A DNA stretch of 64,000 nucleotides, from NCBI GenBank assembly GCA_026125795.1, contig JAHCKM010000001.1, positions 372,001 to 436,000 of the forward strand, read 5' to 3'. Position 1 is the stretch's first letter; every line of letters starts with the position of its first letter. Made by a program: the position numbers and the translations under genes. Of the stretch, positions 45,785-63,877 are shown one piece after another. Source of the stretch: Burkholderiaceae bacterium (GTDB taxonomy: Bacteria > Pseudomonadota > Gammaproteobacteria > Burkholderiales > Burkholderiaceae_C). Under the pieces are notes generated by a model. The model was not told the DNA's origin and ran no database searches. It saw nothing but the letters and a program-made list of their open reading frames with translations.

Positions 45785-47539
45785 TCAGAACAGGAAATAC
45801 CGCTGCGCCATCGGCAGCACCTTGGCCGGCTCGCAGGTCAGCAGCTGGCCGTCGGCGCGCACGTTATAGGTCTGTGCGTCGATCTCCATCCGCGGCAGAT
45901 AGTCGTTGTGCAGCATCTGCTTCTTGGTCACGCCGCGCACGTTCTTCACCGCGGCCAAACGCTTGCGCAAACCGTAGCCCTCGGCGGCACCTTGCTGCAG
46001 CGCCGACTGGCTGACAAAGCTCAATGAGGTGGCGCCCACCGCGCCGCCGAACGAGCCGAACATCGACCGCATGTGCACCGGCTGCGGCGTGGGAATGCTC
46101 GCGTTGGGGTCGCCCATCGCGGCGGCGGCGATGAAGCCGCCCTTGAGGATCAGGCTCGGCTTGACGCCGAAGAACGCCGGCTTCCACAGCACCAGGTCGG
46201 CCCACTTGCCGACCTCGATCGAACCCACCTCGTGCGCGATGCCGTTGGCGATGGCCGGGTTGATCGTGTACTTGGCCACGTAGCGCTTGACGCGACTGTT
46301 GTCGTGTCGTGCTGGATCACCGGGCAGCCCTCCGGGCTGCGTGTCGCCCGGCAGCGAGCCGCGCTGCGCCTTCATCTTGTGCGCGGTCTGCCAGGTGCGG
46401 ATGATCACCTCGCCGACGCGCCCCATCGCCTGGCTGTCGCTGCTCATCATGCTGATCGCGCCCATGTCGTGCAGCACGTCCTCGGCGGCGATGGTCTCCT
46501 TGCGGATGCGGCTCTCGGCAAACGCCAGGTCTTCGGCGATGGCCGAGTCGAGGTGGTGGCACACCATCAGCATGTCGAGGTGCTCGTCGACGGTGTTCAC
46601 CGTGTAGGGCATCGTCGGATTGGTCGAGCTCGGCAGGAAGTTCGCTTCGCCCACCACGCGCAGGATGTCGGGCGCATGGCCGCCGCCCGCGCCCTCGGTG
46701 TGGAACGCGCACAGGCCGCGCCCCCTGGTGGCGGCGATGGTGTCCTCGACGAAACCGCTTTCGTTCAGCGTGTCGCTGTGAATGGACACCTGCGTGTCGG
46801 TGGCTTCGGCCACCGTGAGGCAGCAGTCGATCGCGCTCGGCGTCGTGCCCCAGTCTTCGTGCAACTTAAGGCCGATGGCACCGGCCTGAATTTGCTGCTG
46901 CAGCGCGGCCGGCTGGCTGGCGTTGCCCTTGCCGAGGAAGCCGAGGTTCATCGCAAAACCATCGGCCGCCTGCAGCATCAGCCGGATGTGCTGCGGCCCC
47001 GGCGTGCACGTGGTGGCGAACGTGCCGGTGGCCGGGCCGGTGCCCCCGCCCAGCATCGTGGTGACGCCCGAGGCGAGCGCCTCGTCGATCTGCTGCGGGC
47101 AGATGAAGTGGATGTGGCTGTCGATGCCGCCCGCGGTGACGATCAGGCCTTCGCCGGCGATGATCTCGGTGCCCGGTCCGATCACGATGTCGACGCCGTT
47201 CATCACGTCGGGGTTGCCAGCCTTGCCGATGCCTGAGATGCGCGAGCGCTTGATGCCGATGTCGGCCTTCACAATGCCCCAGTGGTCGACGATCAGCGCG
47301 TTGGTGACCACACAGTCGGCCGCCTCGTGCGCGCCGGGGCCGTTGACCGCCTGGCCCTGGCCCATGCCGTCGCGGATGGTCTTGCCGCCGCCGAACTTCA
47401 CCTCGTCGCCGTAGCCGCCGGCGTTCAGCGTGTGGTCCTGCTCGACCTCGATGACCAGCCCGGTGTCGGCCAGGCGGAGGCGGTCACCGACCGTGGGGCC
47501 GAACATCTCGGCATATGCGCGCCGCCCGATCGTGGCCAT
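45785..47539 (-). CDS. ureC: Urease subunit alpha
   Basis: A 584-residue catalytic subunit. Nickel and catalytic residues: H142 and H144 (SHIHFICPQ), carbamylated K225 ([12 protein letters not shown]), H254, H280 ([12 protein letters not shown]), flap C327-H328 ([16 protein letters not shown]) and D368 (SSDSQAMG). It is about 15 residues longer than typical because of a Gly/Pro insertion at about 396-409 ([14 protein letters not shown]), whose DNA carries a perfect 7-bp hairpin (46324-46340). It starts 1 nt from ureB's end, so is translationally coupled. Confidence 0.97.
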
Positions 47540-49986: not shown

Positions 49987-51558
49987 GTGCTGCTTCGCCT
50001 GGTTTTGGTTTGCCTGTCGCTGATCTCGCTGCCTGCGTGGGCCCTTACGCCCGAGCACGCGGCTCGCATTGCCGCCGGTGACAGCGACGAGCGCATTGCG
50101 GCGTTGAACGAGGCGGTGGCGGCGGCCGACGCGGGGCTGGGGCCGTTCCTGCAGGCGCTGCTGGCCGACGAGGTGAAGGTCGCCGCCGGCAAGGCCTACG
50201 TGGTGCGCGACGACAAGGTCATCGAGGCCGGCAGCGGGGTGGCAGCCAAGCTGCCCGATGGTGCCGAGGATGTCGTCAACAACAACCGCATGCGGCGCGA
50301 GATGGAAACCGCGCTGGCGGCGCTGTCGCTGTTTTCGCCCGACACGGCGGTGCGCGCCAAGGCGATCAACGAGCTGAAGGATCAGGTCGACGACGGCAAG
50401 CTTCCGCTGCTCGAGAAGGCCGAGGCGCAGGAGAAGGACGCCGCGCTGAAGGCGCAGCTCGGCGTGCTCAAGGCGGCGGTGCTGATCGGCTCGAAAGACA
50501 AGGACAAGCGCGTCGCCGCGGCCAAGCTGCTGGCTCACAGCAACGAGCCCGCCACGCGCTCGCTGTTGCTCGAGCGGCTGGCCGCCGAGAGCGATGCGCA
50601 GGTGAAGGCCGCGATCCGAACCTCACTCGATGCCGTGCAATCGCGCCTGGCCTGGGGCGAGCGCCTCGGGCTGCTGTTCACCGGCGCCAGCCTCGGCAGC
50701 ATCTTGCTGCTGGTCGCGCTGGGCCTGGCGATCACCTACGGCCTGATGGGCGTGATCAACATGGCGCACGGCGAGCTGATGATGATCGGCGCCTACGCGA
50801 CCTACGTGGTGCAGAACGCCTTCAGGGCCTGGCTCCCCGGCGCCTTCGATGCCTACGTGATCGTCGCGATTCCGGTCGCGTTTCTCACGTCGGCGCTGGT
50901 CGGCGTGATCCTCGAGCGCAGCGTGATCCGCTGGCTCTACGGTCGGCCGCTCGAGACGCTGCTGGCCACCTGGGGCATCAGCCTGGTGCTGATGCAGGGC
51001 GTGCGCTCGATCTTCGGCGCGCAGAACGTCGGCGTGGAGAATCCGAGCTGGTTGTCGGGCGGCGTGCAGGTGCTGCCCAATCTCACGCTGCCGTACAACC
51101 GCATCGCGATCCTGGTGTTCGCGGCGCTGGTGCTGGCCGGCATGGCGTGGTTGATCGCGCGCACGCGCTTGGGGCTGTTCGTGCGCGGCGTGACGCAGAA
51201 CCGGCGCATGGCATCGTGCGTGGGCGTCAACACGGCGCGCGTGGACATGGCGGCGTTTGCGCTGGGTGCCGGCATCGCCGGGCTCGCGGGCTGTGCATTG
51301 AGCCAGGTCGGCAACGTGGGCCCCGACCTGGGCCAGAGCTACATCGTCGACTCCTTCATGGTGGTGGTGCTCGGTGGCGTGGGCCAGCTCACCGGCACCG
51401 TGGTGGCCGCGCTCGGCCTGGGCGTGATCAACAAGTTTCTCGAGGGCTTCGCCGGCGCCGTGCTCGCCAAGATCATGGTGCTGGTGTTCATCGTCATCTT
51501 CATCCAGAAGCGGCCACAAGGGCTGTTTGCGGTGAAGGGGCGGAGCGCGGAGGCCTAG
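49987..51558 (+). CDS. urtB: Urea ABC transporter, permease UrtB
   Basis: A 523-residue protein. A signal-like start (MLLRLVLVCLSLISLPAWA) and a helical, charged periplasmic domain (about 20-225) precede the membrane domain with GLAITYGLMGVINMAHGELMMIGAY, ERSVIRWLYGRPLETLLATWG and VDSFMVVVLGGVGQLTGTVVAA. The large N-terminal extension is characteristic of UrtB compared with LivH. The start is GTG. The gene is followed by about 570 nt of repeat before urtC, unusual inside this operon. Confidence 0.95.
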   Translation: MLLRLVLVCLSLISLPAWALTPEHAARIAAGDSDERIAALNEAVAAADAGLGPFLQALLADEVKVAAGKAYVVRDDKVIEAGSGVAAKLPDGAEDVVNNNRMRREMETALAALSLFSPDTAVRAKAINELKDQVDDGKLPLLEKAEAQEKDAALKAQLGVLKAAVLIGSKDKDKRVAAAKLLAHSNEPATRSLLLERLAAESDAQVKAAIRTSLDAVQSRLAWGERLGLLFTGASLGSILLLVALGLAITYGLMGVINMAHGELMMIGAYATYVVQNAFRAWLPGAFDAYVIVAIPVAFLTSALVGVILERSVIRWLYGRPLETLLATWGISLVLMQGVRSIFGAQNVGVENPSWLSGGVQVLPNLTLPYNRIAILVFAALVLAGMAWLIARTRLGLFVRGVTQNRRMASCVGVNTARVDMAAFALGAGIAGLAGCALSQVGNVGPDLGQSYIVDSFMVVVLGGVGQLTGTVVAALGLGVINKFLEGFAGAVLAKIMVLVFIVIFIQKRPQGLFAVKGRSAEA

Positions 51559-51585
51559 GATGCAAATGCGAGCTTCTGCGCGGCG

Positions 51586-52110
51586 CGGCGGGCGGTACCC
51601 GGGGTGTGCTCCTACTGTCGCGGTCGGCGCTGCGCGCCGACTTCGCTGCGGTGCTCGCGGCACAAGGGCGGCTGCGATGCCGCTCGCAAGCGGCGCTGAA
51701 CGCGCCGCTGCTTCATGGCTTCTCGCCGGTCCGGCGCCTATCGGCGCCGGACTTCCCCTTGTGCCGCTGCGCTCCTCACCGCGCCACAAGTCGCCCACCC
51801 CGGATACCGCCCACCGCGCTGAGACGCTCGTGGTCATCCTCGACGAACACCTCGGTGGTGCCGGCAAAACCGTGGTCTGGTGTGCGCCGGCAGCGACATC
51901 TGCGGCGCCGAGGACCGCAGAGCGCATGGCCGCGCGCGCGCAGCGCGCGCTTCAACATCTGACTCGCGTCGACTGTTCGACCACAGCGAACGAAGTGAGC
52001 GGCGGGAGTTTCGACGCGGGCCATGCGATCGAGGACCGCAGGGGAGTCGGCCGCAGGCCGACCGCCGCAGCCGAGCGCCGGCGCATACCCGGCCGCGGCT
52101 TTGCGCGCTC
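51586..52110 (+). repeat. Long structured intergenic repeat, copy A (5' of urtC)
   Basis: About 520 nt fill the urtB-urtC gap. Successive hairpins: GTCGGCGC-TGC-GCGCCGAC (51623-51641), AGCGGCGC-TGAAC-GCGCCGCT (51689-51709), GTCCGGCGCC-TATC-GGCGCCGGAC (51729-51752), GCGCGCGC-GCA-GCGCGCGC (51932-51950) and GTCGGCC-GCA-GGCCGAC (52046-52062). The whole block matches the reverse complement of 63334-63857. Positions 51881-52099 differ from their counterpart at six sites with no gap. Open frames here are stop-poor GC artefacts, not genes. Confidence 0.9.
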
Positions 52111-52131
52111 GATCTCGAAAGTGAAGCAGAC

Positions 52132-53253
52132 ATGAGCGCAGTCCTGCCCACACCGCTCACCCTTCAGCCACGCCGCGGACTGCTGCTCGGCGCCACCGGC
52201 TGGACCGCGGTCATCGCCGTCATGTTGGTGATCACCGTCGGCATCCCAATCCTCAACCTCGCCGTCCCCGCCGACAGCGCGTTCCACATCAGCGACTACA
52301 CCGTCAGCCTGGCCGGCAAGATCCTGTGCTACGCGATCTGCGCGCTGGCGATGGACCTGATCTGGGGCTACACCGGCATCCTGTCGCTGGGGCACGGCCT
52401 GTTCTTCGCGCTCGGCGGTTATGCGATGGGCATGTACCTGATGCGCCAGATCGGGCGCGACGGACAGTACAAGGCCGACATGCCGGATTTCATGGTGTTC
52501 CTCAACTGGAAGGAATACCCCTGGCACTGGACTTTCAGCGACAGCTTCGTGTTCCAGCTGCTGATGGTGGTGCTGGTGCCGGGGCTGCTGGCGTTCGTGT
52601 TCGGCTGGTTCGCGTTCCGCTCGCGCATCAAGGGCGTGTACTTCTCCATCATCACGCAGGCGATGACGTTCGCCGCGATGCTGCTGTTCTTCCGCAACGA
52701 GACCGGCTTCGGCGGCAACAATGGCTTCACCGACTTCAAGCGCATCCTCGGCATCCCGATCACCACGCGCGAGGCGCGCGTGGTGCTGTTCGCCATCACC
52801 GGCTGTGTGCTGGTGGCGTTCTACCTGATGTCGCGCGCCATCGTGCACAGCAAGTACGGCCGTGTGCTGCAGGCGATCCGCGACGCCGAGAGCCGCGTGA
52901 TGTTCACCGGCTACAACCCGGTGGCCTACAAGCTCAGCATCTGGACGCTGTCGGCGGTGATGTGCGCGATCGCCGGCGCGCTGTACGTGCCGCAAGTGGG
53001 CATCATCAACCCGAGCGAGATGAGCCCGGCGGCGTCGATCGAGATCGCCATCTGGGCCGCGGTGGGCGGGCGCGGCACGTTGATCGGCCCGATCATCGGT
53101 GCGTTCTTCGTCAACGGCGCCAAGAGCTGGTTCACCGCCGCGTTTCCGGAGTTCTGGCTCTACTTTCTCGGCGCGCTGTTCATCGCGGTGACGCTGTTCC
53201 TGCCCCATGGCCTGATCGGGCTGCTGCGCAAGCGCAAGGAGAGTCGCTCATGA
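52132..53253 (+). CDS. urtC: Urea ABC transporter, permease UrtC
   Basis: A 373-residue LivM-like permease with about ten membrane segments. KILCYAICALAMDLIWGYTGILSLGHGLFFALGGY, FFRNETGFGGNNGFTDFK, IRDAESRVMFTGYNP and EIAIWAAVGGRGTLIGPIIGA are UrtC marks. ATG 52132 follows the long repeat almost directly; a frame reaching 51880 is repeat-derived. Its stop overlaps urtD (ATGA). Confidence 0.95.
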   Translation: MSAVLPTPLTLQPRRGLLLGATGWTAVIAVMLVITVGIPILNLAVPADSAFHISDYTVSLAGKILCYAICALAMDLIWGYTGILSLGHGLFFALGGYAMGMYLMRQIGRDGQYKADMPDFMVFLNWKEYPWHWTFSDSFVFQLLMVVLVPGLLAFVFGWFAFRSRIKGVYFSIITQAMTFAAMLLFFRNETGFGGNNGFTDFKRILGIPITTREARVVLFAITGCVLVAFYLMSRAIVHSKYGRVLQAIRDAESRVMFTGYNPVAYKLSIWTLSAVMCAIAGALYVPQVGIINPSEMSPAASIEIAIWAAVGGRGTLIGPIIGAFFVNGAKSWFTAAFPEFWLYFLGALFIAVTLFLPHGLIGLLRKRKESRS

Positions 53254-62505: not shown

Positions 62506-63324
62506 TCACTGCGGCACCGCGGACGCGCCCGCCTTGCCACGCACCGCGCCGATGTGGCCGCGCAGCTCGTGCACGATGTCTGTGAACTGCGGCGTGTAGG
62601 TCACCTCGAGGTCGCGCGGACGCGGCAGGTCGATCTCGCGCTTGACCACGAAGCGGCCCGGGCTCCTGCTCATGCAGTACACGGTGTCGGCCAGGAACAC
62701 GCTCTCGCGCAGGTCATGGGTCACCAGGATCACGTTGAACTTCTGCGCCGCGTGCAGGTCGCGCAGCGCGCACCACAGCTCCTCGCGCGTGAACGCATCG
62801 AGCGCACCGAACGGCTCGTCGAGCAGCAGCATCTTGGGCTCGTGCACGAGCGCGCGGCAGATGCTGGCGCGCTGCTGCATGCCACCCGACAGCTGCCACG
62901 GAAACTTGTCCTCGTAGCCGCCCAGGCCCACACTCTTCAGCAGCGCGATCGCCTTGGCCTCGTACTCCTTGCGCTTGCTCTTGAACGTGGAACGGTACGG
63001 CTCCACGATCTCCAGCGGCAGCAGCACGTTGTGCAGCGTGGTGCGCCACGGCAGCAGGCTCGGCGCCTGGAACGCCATGCCGCTGATCTTGAGCGGCCCG
63101 TTCACCAGCTTGCCATCGATCTGGATCGTGCCCTTGCTCGGCATCTTCAAGCCGGTGGTCAGCTTCATGAACGTCGACTTGCCGCAACCGCTTGGGCCGA
63201 CGATGGCGATGAACTCGCCCTGGTTCACTTGCAGCGAGATGTCTTCGACTGCGAAGTGTCCTTGCGCCAGCAGCTCGTCGTTGTAAGCGAGCCAGACGTT
63301 CTTGAAGTCGACGAACGCGTTCAT
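62506..63324 (-). CDS. ABC transporter ATPase, NitT/TauT type
   Basis: A 272-residue SsuB/TauB-like ATPase. Walker A is GPSGCGKST (43-51), the Q-loop FQAPSLLPWRT, signature LSGGMQQRASICRAL, Walker B MLLLDEPFGALDA, H-loop VTHDLRESVFLADTV. ATG 63324 gives MNAFVDFKNVWL; the longer frame to 63861 is derived from the repeat upstream. It is preceded by the long structured repeat, which separates it from the substrate-binding protein gene. Confidence 0.94.
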   Translation of the reverse strand: MNAFVDFKNVWLAYNDELLAQGHFAVEDISLQVNQGEFIAIVGPSGCGKSTFMKLTTGLKMPSKGTIQIDGKLVNGPLKISGMAFQAPSLLPWRTTLHNVLLPLEIVEPYRSTFKSKRKEYEAKAIALLKSVGLGGYEDKFPWQLSGGMQQRASICRALVHEPKMLLLDEPFGALDAFTREELWCALRDLHAAQKFNVILVTHDLRESVFLADTVYCMSRSPGRFVVKREIDLPRPRDLEVTYTPQFTDIVHELRGHIGAVRGKAGASAVPQ

Positions 63325-63333
63325 GCGTCGATT

Positions 63334-63857
63334 GAGCGAGCAAGGCCGCGGCCGGGTGTGCGCCGGCGCTCGGCTGCAGCGGTCGGCCTGCGGCCGACTC
63401 CCCTGCGGTGCTCGATCGCATGGCCCGCGTCGAAACTCGCTCCGCTCACTTCGTTCGCTGTGCTCGAACAGTCGACGCGAGTCAGATGTTGAAGCGCGCG
63501 CTGCGCGCGCGCGGCCATGCGCTCTGCGGTCCTCGGCGCCGCAGATGTCGCTGCCGGCGCACACCCGACCGCGGCTTTGCCGATGCAACGAGGTGTTTGT
63601 CGACCCACACCACGAGAGGTGCTGCGCGGTGGGCGGTACCCGGTGGCGGCGACTTGTGGGGCGGCGAGAAGCGCAGCGACACAAGGGGAAGTCCGGCGCC
63701 GCAGGCGCTGGACCGGCGAGAAGCCATGAAGCAGTGGCCCGTTCAGGGCCGCTGCGAGCGGCATCGCAGCCGCCCTTGTGGCGCGAGCATCGCAGCGCAG
63801 TCGGCCTGCAAGGCCGACCGACCCAGTAGGAGCCGCTACCGGGTACCGCCCACCGCG
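63334..63857 (-). repeat. Long structured intergenic repeat, copy B (5' of importer ATPase)
   Basis: About 520 nt fill the gap between the substrate-binding protein and ATPase genes. Hairpins (plus-strand coordinates) are at 63382-63398, 63494-63512, 63691-63713, 63731-63755 and 63800-63818, in the same order as in copy A when read with the genes. Positions 63345-63563 match copy A with six substitutions and no gap; the remainder is diverged but collinear. Except for 9 nt before the ATPase start, little else lies in this gene-free interval. Confidence 0.9.
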
Positions 63858-63877
63858 CCACGCCACTGATGGAAGAG

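Follow-up and report, generated by a model that had tools for sequence, protein, structure and literature searches.

A structured repeat of two inverted folded domains at operon junctions in a Burkholderiaceae genome

Two copies of a folded element beside transporter genes

The stretch of DNA that we analysed (the window, 64,000 nucleotides from a Burkholderiaceae bacterium) carries two copies of one element next to importer genes. Copy A (51579..52115, forward strand) lies between urtB (50104..51558, forward) and urtC (52132..53253, forward), and copy B (63330..63863, reverse) lies upstream of the ATPase gene of a second importer (62506..63324, reverse). The three genes were called with our own codon-usage script, trained on the window from two seed genes; the names urtB and urtC come from the sequence-only reading of this DNA, homologues were found for urtC, and the third gene encodes a Walker-A pattern of ABC ATPases. 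Both of the ~520-bp copies that this reading had placed in the two gaps exist there, and the bounds given above are set by ends common to the copies, which in copy A are CGCGGCGCGGCGGGCGGTACCCGG on the left and CGGCTTTGC.CGCTCG.TC on the right (forward strand). Both copies are sense to the gene that follows and stop short of its start codon by 17 nt (A) and 5 nt (B), in agreement with the common direction and the distance of within about 25 nt that it had stated. When copy A is aligned with copy B, 480 positions are identical, 50 are mismatched and 11 are gaps, and re-alignment of the gene-proximal 219 nt gave exactly the six differences, with no gap, that had been counted. The description of the element as hairpin-rich holds as well: the RNA fold of copy A has a predicted energy of -329.6 kcal/mol (z -6.08), and none of 100 shuffles was as low. 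The statement that the element occurs twice is correct for the window but not for the genome, which contains at least 51 copies.

A full copy (~540 nt) consists of two large folded domains in inverted order, each closed separately by inverted repeats. In copy A, domain 1 (51579..51824, reverse) is the reverse-orientation unit with the outer stem GCGGCGGGCGGTACCC / GGATACCGCCCACCGC, and domain 2 (51861..52113, forward) is the forward unit with the outer stem GCAAAACCG...GCGCCGGC / GCCGGCGC...CGGCTTTGC. Domain 2 opens with the motif GAGNANCGCAG, which is followed by a long stem, an inner GC hairpin and a second stem that leads into a loop region containing TGTTYGA..GAGTTT; the closing stem, the motif again and a hairpin complete it. 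Each unit has two such motifs, which are predicted to pair with each other. In domain 2 of copy A both read GAGGACCGCAG (motif 1 at 51910..51920, motif 2 at 52031..52041, forward), with the predicted pairing around an A.A mismatch; those of domain 1 are on the reverse strand (motif 1 at 51767..51777, motif 2 at 51646..51656). The motif spacing is 118-122 nt in domain 1, read on the other strand, and 121 nt in most domain-2 units. The conserved motif is GAGNANCGCAG on both sides of the long stem, and not a short hairpin with a GTAG-type 5' tetranucleotide. Since domain 1 follows the same plan on the other strand, and since three congener elements (L223, L229 and L214) have a domain-2-type unit in both halves, we conclude that two units in inverted orientation make up the element. 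The very ends are not terminal inverted repeats, as CGCGGCGCGG on the left and GCTCGGTC on the right were not complementary by eye.

Some copies contain further sequences. An ~80-bp two-hairpin module (GAGCCCGGAC - hairpin - GCCTGGCGA - hairpin), a second and smaller structured repeat whose hairpins also change in step, is inserted within the element at q70, q128-130, q334, q454-456 or q466 (carriers L024, L027, L028, L029, L030, L062, L063, L066, L304, L305 and L306). L066 has an additional, different insert of 56 nt at q195, and at L020 (C1:1233423-1233518) extra left ends stand in tandem, 39 nt apart, beside one element. In the left flanks of L018, L019 and L065, stop codon and element are separated by similar GC-rich sequence (..GAGGGCGG..), which may be a relic of another repeat.

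Copy number and placement in the genome

Copies in the window's own genome (6,568,748 bases in six contigs) were detected by three routes. Pieces found by a DNA search were grouped into at least 40 copies (40 of 384 candidates scored). A covariance model of domain 2 (R1) gave 36 strong matches, one of them new, and seven weak matches on the opposite strand of known elements, which are domain-1 units recognised by the domain-2 model. A left-end pattern matched at 97 sites (48 forward, 49 reverse; reversed control 0) and added ten loci, bringing the total to 51. An exact-pattern search of genome contigs returned no match. As the copies come from these three routes, 51 is a lower bound. The domain-2 core is missing in 15 of the 51 copies and domain 1 in one, so that copies decay and no part is strictly kept. 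At the DNA level, the element was matched in all five congeners sampled.

The placement of the copies is strongly biased: 44 of the 51 lie in sense orientation between co-directional genes, two are reversed between co-directional genes, three are between convergent and two between divergent genes. The sense excess of 44 versus 2 has a two-sided p of 3e-11. Co-directional junctions whose two gaps together amount to at most 100 nt hold 42 of the 51 copies; in the window, such junctions make up 1152 of 6297 intergenic bp. The median distance is 24.5 nt from the preceding stop codon and 24 nt to the following start codon, where right gaps were taken to the nearest in-frame start and six loci (L064, L065 and L067-L070) were reassigned by hand, as the nearest gene had been listed as spanning. 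A simple C/G strand asymmetry was considered and rejected (8321 C versus 8049 G over 40 copies). The bias recurs in two congeners (G004 and G005), where 24 of 27 distinct elements are sense, two are reversed and one is unresolved; this count rests on 30 loci of 40 matches, from which L231, L232 and L234 were dropped as second matches to elements already counted.

The neighbouring genes are of many kinds. Beyond ABC importers, their translations point to ileS/lspA, leuC/leuD-like, dehydrogenase E1-like and Mnh-like pairs, and in nine of 40 cases the right-hand neighbour is recognised as an ABC ATPase by its Walker-A pattern. The regulatory role specific to nitrogen uptake that the sequence-only reading had raised rested on the importer genes that follow both window copies; because the at least 51 copies occupy many kinds of operon, a regulator of this type is extremely improbable, and the genome survey refutes the proposal by the test set out with it.

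Covariation and relatives of the folded unit

The predicted fold was examined in three alignments. In 63 domain-2 units (alignment A2, fitted to its model, with 58 loci given, 30 of them from own copies, and leaving out partial copies and copies with inserts in domain 2), 98.8% of the cells were paired, and two-sided changes occurred in 29 of 41 pairs versus 18.3 expected by shuffling. The covariation score was 0.428 versus 0.113 for shuffled alignments, and at most 0.046 when the partner was slid by 1-3 columns. A MAFFT alignment of 24 full copies, which was not fitted to a model but whose structure is the RNAalifold prediction from the same alignment, had two-sided changes in 14 of 82 domain-1 pairs and 18 of 85 domain-2 pairs; the maxima of 200 shuffles were 12 and 16, respectively. 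Finally, 17 distant units from 14 loci (alignment A3) gave 17 predicted pairs, 14 of which showed two-sided changes. There, motifs 1 and 2 are predicted to form a duplex of nearly two-fold symmetry that contains an A.A mismatch, and two of its pairs (columns 7-128 and 9-126) are at positions left free by the motif filter with which the units were chosen, a filter that L073, L081, L084, L086 and L090 failed (five of the 19 loci L072-L090). The conservation of the motifs in A3 is therefore partly built in, but the covarying N positions are not, and in the genus set two-sided variation is seen at the same two motif pairs (columns 17-177 and 20-169). Part of the stem covariation could come from template-switch correction of quasi-palindromes rather than from selection. 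From the covariation, both ends of the element are probably large folded units.

The unit is not restricted to the genus. R1 matched in 21 of 274 genomes sampled from the class (presumably Gammaproteobacteria), and a second model built from the 17 units of A3 (R2) in 49 of these 274 genomes and in 53 of 200 genomes of the order (presumably Burkholderiales), the own genome being included in both R2 counts. Among 30 loci of 30 other genomes, 15 had a partner unit in minus-plus order, and one (L240, which a contig end interrupts) had a second unit pointing the same way as the first. This order is not universal, as plus-then-minus pairs ~0.4 kb apart occur in G333 and G379, and a tandem arrangement in G025. 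An inverted pair without a listed gene lies between convergent genes in Variovorax paradoxus VAI-C (CP063167.1, ~173.5-174.2 kb). Placement by the longest-ORF rule was attempted for 25 of the 30 loci, four of which were unresolved: 12 of the 21 classified were between co-directional, six between convergent and three between divergent genes. Because this placement is looser, the operon-internal rule looks specific to the genus.

Nine pairs picked for their spacing (L265-L273) have units at distances of 0.8-2.4 kb with different ORFs between them, which makes these pairs possible gene-carrying relatives; in L265, L266, L268 and L269, we read structured inverted ends of ~270 bp. Nine enclosed ORFs from eight of these nine loci (L265-L272; the ORF of L270 runs into a unit) were compared with Pfam, giving 8xMP above the cut-off and FG-GAP below it, and eight were compared with PADLOC, giving one weak DRT-related match. 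These scans gave no support for an autonomous gene within the pairs, a reading that was rejected: the ORFs differ, and no transposase was recognised among the nine (Pfam) or the eight (PADLOC).

A known Rfam family was also rejected. At the gathering threshold, no family matched the element in the window or in 15 relatives, for which the best score was RsmW near a reverse unit of L085 (33.2 of 52 bits, E 0.064), and copy A had no match at E<=1. If our reading is right, the family of structured repeats that R2 finds in 49 of 274 genomes of the class is one without an Rfam entry at threshold. Copies were not found by blastn in phage and plasmid collections; of three related stretches compared with plasmids, one had no match, a second matched eight records that cover no more than 21% of it, mainly in the outer hairpin, and the third matched two records. 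No description of the repeat was recognised among the papers that searches of the open PMC literature returned. Elsewhere in the window, Rfam RF02514 (5' ureB sRNA) matched at 47080-47378 (forward, 110.9 bits), antisense to the gene at 45785-47539 (reverse), and this match may be due to the protein-coding sequence of the opposite strand.

Origin of the element and comparison with known systems

Both window sites are empty in congeners that have the genes. A close UrtC was found in one of the five congeners only (G002), and there urtB overlaps urtC at ATGA (..GGCATGAAC); at the site of copy B, the genes overlap at GTGA in G003 and are separated by 5 nt in G002. In 80 named relatives, the urtB-urtC gaps range from -46 to 176 nt and are too short for the element. 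Some urtB-urtC gaps of other Burkholderiales carry several unrelated hairpin repeats (L111, L119, L120, L126, L149, L099, L141, L143, L121 and L145), and this junction seems to collect repeats. Six of 35 left flanks examined retain TGAgATG, which we read as the former start of the downstream gene. Permutation tests (p 0.41 and 0.69) gave no sign of a target-site duplication in general, the only exception being L008 with an imperfect duplication of ~58 nt of the junction. At seven of 40 own junctions (L002, L004, L005, L009, L026, L030 and L068), a congener also carries an element in the same position, and each of the two flanking proteins is at least 79% identical there; two more (L021 and L028) are weaker cases; at the site shared by L068 and L218, the congener copy is reversed. 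Such sharing of sites could mean that copies are retained because they are used. The identity of elements within genomes is 0.83, 0.82 and 0.81, as against 0.76-0.77 between genomes, and for 12 same-site pairs, the weaker cases among them, some other copy was always closer than the partner, which ranked 2 to 14 of 13 or 14. These two observations mean either that copies convert one another or that elements have inserted more than once at the same junctions.

From the copy number and the empty sites in congeners, we infer that the element is mobile. The REP- or MITE-like origin that the sequence-only reading had offered as the simpler alternative is supported in kind by the dispersed copies with common ends, the inverted pair and the empty sites, but neither an Rfam match at threshold nor, in the own genome and the five congeners, a Y1 transposase accompanies it. 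On balance, we favour, with confidence a little above even, a non-autonomous, high-copy mobile repeat of the REPIN/MITE type with structured ends, which is tolerated or used as a co-transcribed spacer. The pair would be moved by a trans-acting enzyme that recognises the folded unit in the form of single-stranded DNA or RNA. In the genus, the element persists almost only at stop/start junctions of operons and in sense direction, as the survey shows, and there it becomes a presumably co-transcribed spacer between two cistrons. At the sites of the two window copies, the cistrons of congeners that lack the element overlap or almost touch. The direction bias would arise either in the insertion step or by selection against the other orientation, and we lean towards selection on mRNA. 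A mild role in mRNA processing or in uncoupling of the two genes is possible. The strand bias is stronger than expected for a purely selfish element, which counts against this explanation; so do the searches that found no mover, the lack of a general target-site duplication, the seven junctions that are occupied in a congener as well, the exceptions to the pair order and the part of the covariation that template-switch correction could account for. A bolder reading, which we regard as tentative, is that the element belongs to a new class of mobile elements with paired folded ends and a two-fold symmetric motif duplex, moved in trans, enclosing genes elsewhere and, in one genus, confined strictly by strand to operon junctions, where it would turn overlapping gene pairs into separated ones.

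The strand bias could also mean that the element is a cis-acting structured RNA kept by selection in operons, where it would be cut, protect ends or uncouple translation, so that the two genes differ in level. We consider this possible but rather doubtful. The 44 versus 2 bias with its tight operon-internal placement, repeated in two congeners, the strong covariation with conserved unpaired motifs and the seven of 40 junctions that are occupied in a congener too would all fit such an RNA; loss of the domain-2 core in 15 of 51 copies, the congener copy that is never closest in the 12 same-site pairs, the emptiness of both window sites in congeners having those genes and the loose placement of units in other families (12 co-directional, six convergent and three divergent of 21) would not. 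Insertion coupled to transcription or mRNA, through an RNA intermediate or a folded single strand annealing at an R-loop, would produce the sense bias directly, even at unrelated operons, and the higher identity within genomes (0.83/0.82/0.81 versus 0.76-0.77) needs copying or conversion between copies. This route is quite unlikely, however: no element-linked enzyme was found in searches that covered Y1 transposases and the enclosed ORFs, and placement at junctions only would still require selection against insertions in coding sequence.

Movement as a REPIN or BIME by a RAYT (Y1 HUH) transposase acting on folded single strands would agree with an inverted folded pair present in many intergenic copies, and Y1_Tnp (PF01797) indeed matched in 16 of 25 unit-bearing genomes searched. 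Nevertheless, we consider it unlikely. PF01797 had no match in the own genome or in five congeners, of which three are 68-85% complete; the unit-bearing genomes G445, G139, G288 and G131 gave no match either, and a resident RAYT was rejected as the mover. Of 33 stretches around Y1 matches, only two had a unit within 1.2 kb, in both cases within ~0.6 kb of the Y1 gene (L286 in G212 and L313 in G116), and two more had one at 4-5 kb (L317 and L318). Further, the units are ~95-180 nt long with GAGNANCGCAG rather than a short GTAG hairpin. The transposase searches covered Y1 genome-wide and the nine enclosed ORFs, and no element-linked enzyme emerged from them. As to the two closest cases, L286 (357-1535) is an element-like stretch whose matching inverted ends enclose a RAYT gene (175 aa); this gene brings short repeats of its own, and we read it as a passenger. 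In L313 (800-1896), a unit is found within 1.1 kb of sequence together with a small ORF and a TnpA gene of the IS200 type. We read this Y1 gene as an ordinary IS200-type copy that has hairpins of its own, which also speaks against a RAYT as mover.

If the preferred reading, a non-autonomous mobile repeat, is right, the strict sense placement inside operons makes the genus, with its about fifty natural insertions and some empty sites, a system in which the effect of a large folded spacer on coupled genes can be measured, and in which insertion bias can be separated from selection.

Several known repeats are comparable. BRE (Beta-proteobacterial repeat element, Hot et al. 2011, PMC3110155) is described as a GC-rich, mostly intergenic repeat of ~90 bp in Burkholderiales, with features of mobile elements and tandem arrays at some loci; ERIC, Correia/NEMIS and similar palindromic repeats are named in PMC3110155 and PMC2267715, and for REP, BIME and REPIN with RAYT see PMC2817692. 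Our element is likewise GC-rich and mostly intergenic, with features of mobile elements, but far longer than BRE; by this comparison of descriptions, a shared core is possible. ERIC and Correia/NEMIS are single palindromes of about 100-160 bp, with proposed roles in mRNA stability or processing. Like them, the element is a dispersed palindromic repeat, but by description it differs in having two units in ~540 bp. MITEs and mobile insertion cassettes have inverted ends, no transposase and sometimes passenger genes, and the present family resembles them in its inverted ends, in the lack of a transposase among the ORFs scanned and in the sometimes enclosed genes. Its ends, however, are folded branched units and not plain terminal repeats, it makes no general target-site duplication, and no related IS appeared in the searches made. 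REP sequences and the BIMEs and REPINs they form have many intergenic copies in inverted folded pairs, are non-autonomous and depend on a RAYT transposase; REP hairpins are short and have a GTAG-type 5' tetranucleotide. The element is similar to a REPIN in its many intergenic copies, its inverted folded units and its non-autonomous nature. It differs in that no Y1_Tnp was found in the genus, in a unit that is several times longer (~95-180 nt) with a branched stem in the genus and paired GAGNANCGCAG motifs instead of GTAG, in units that may enclose genes, and in its sense bias inside operons.
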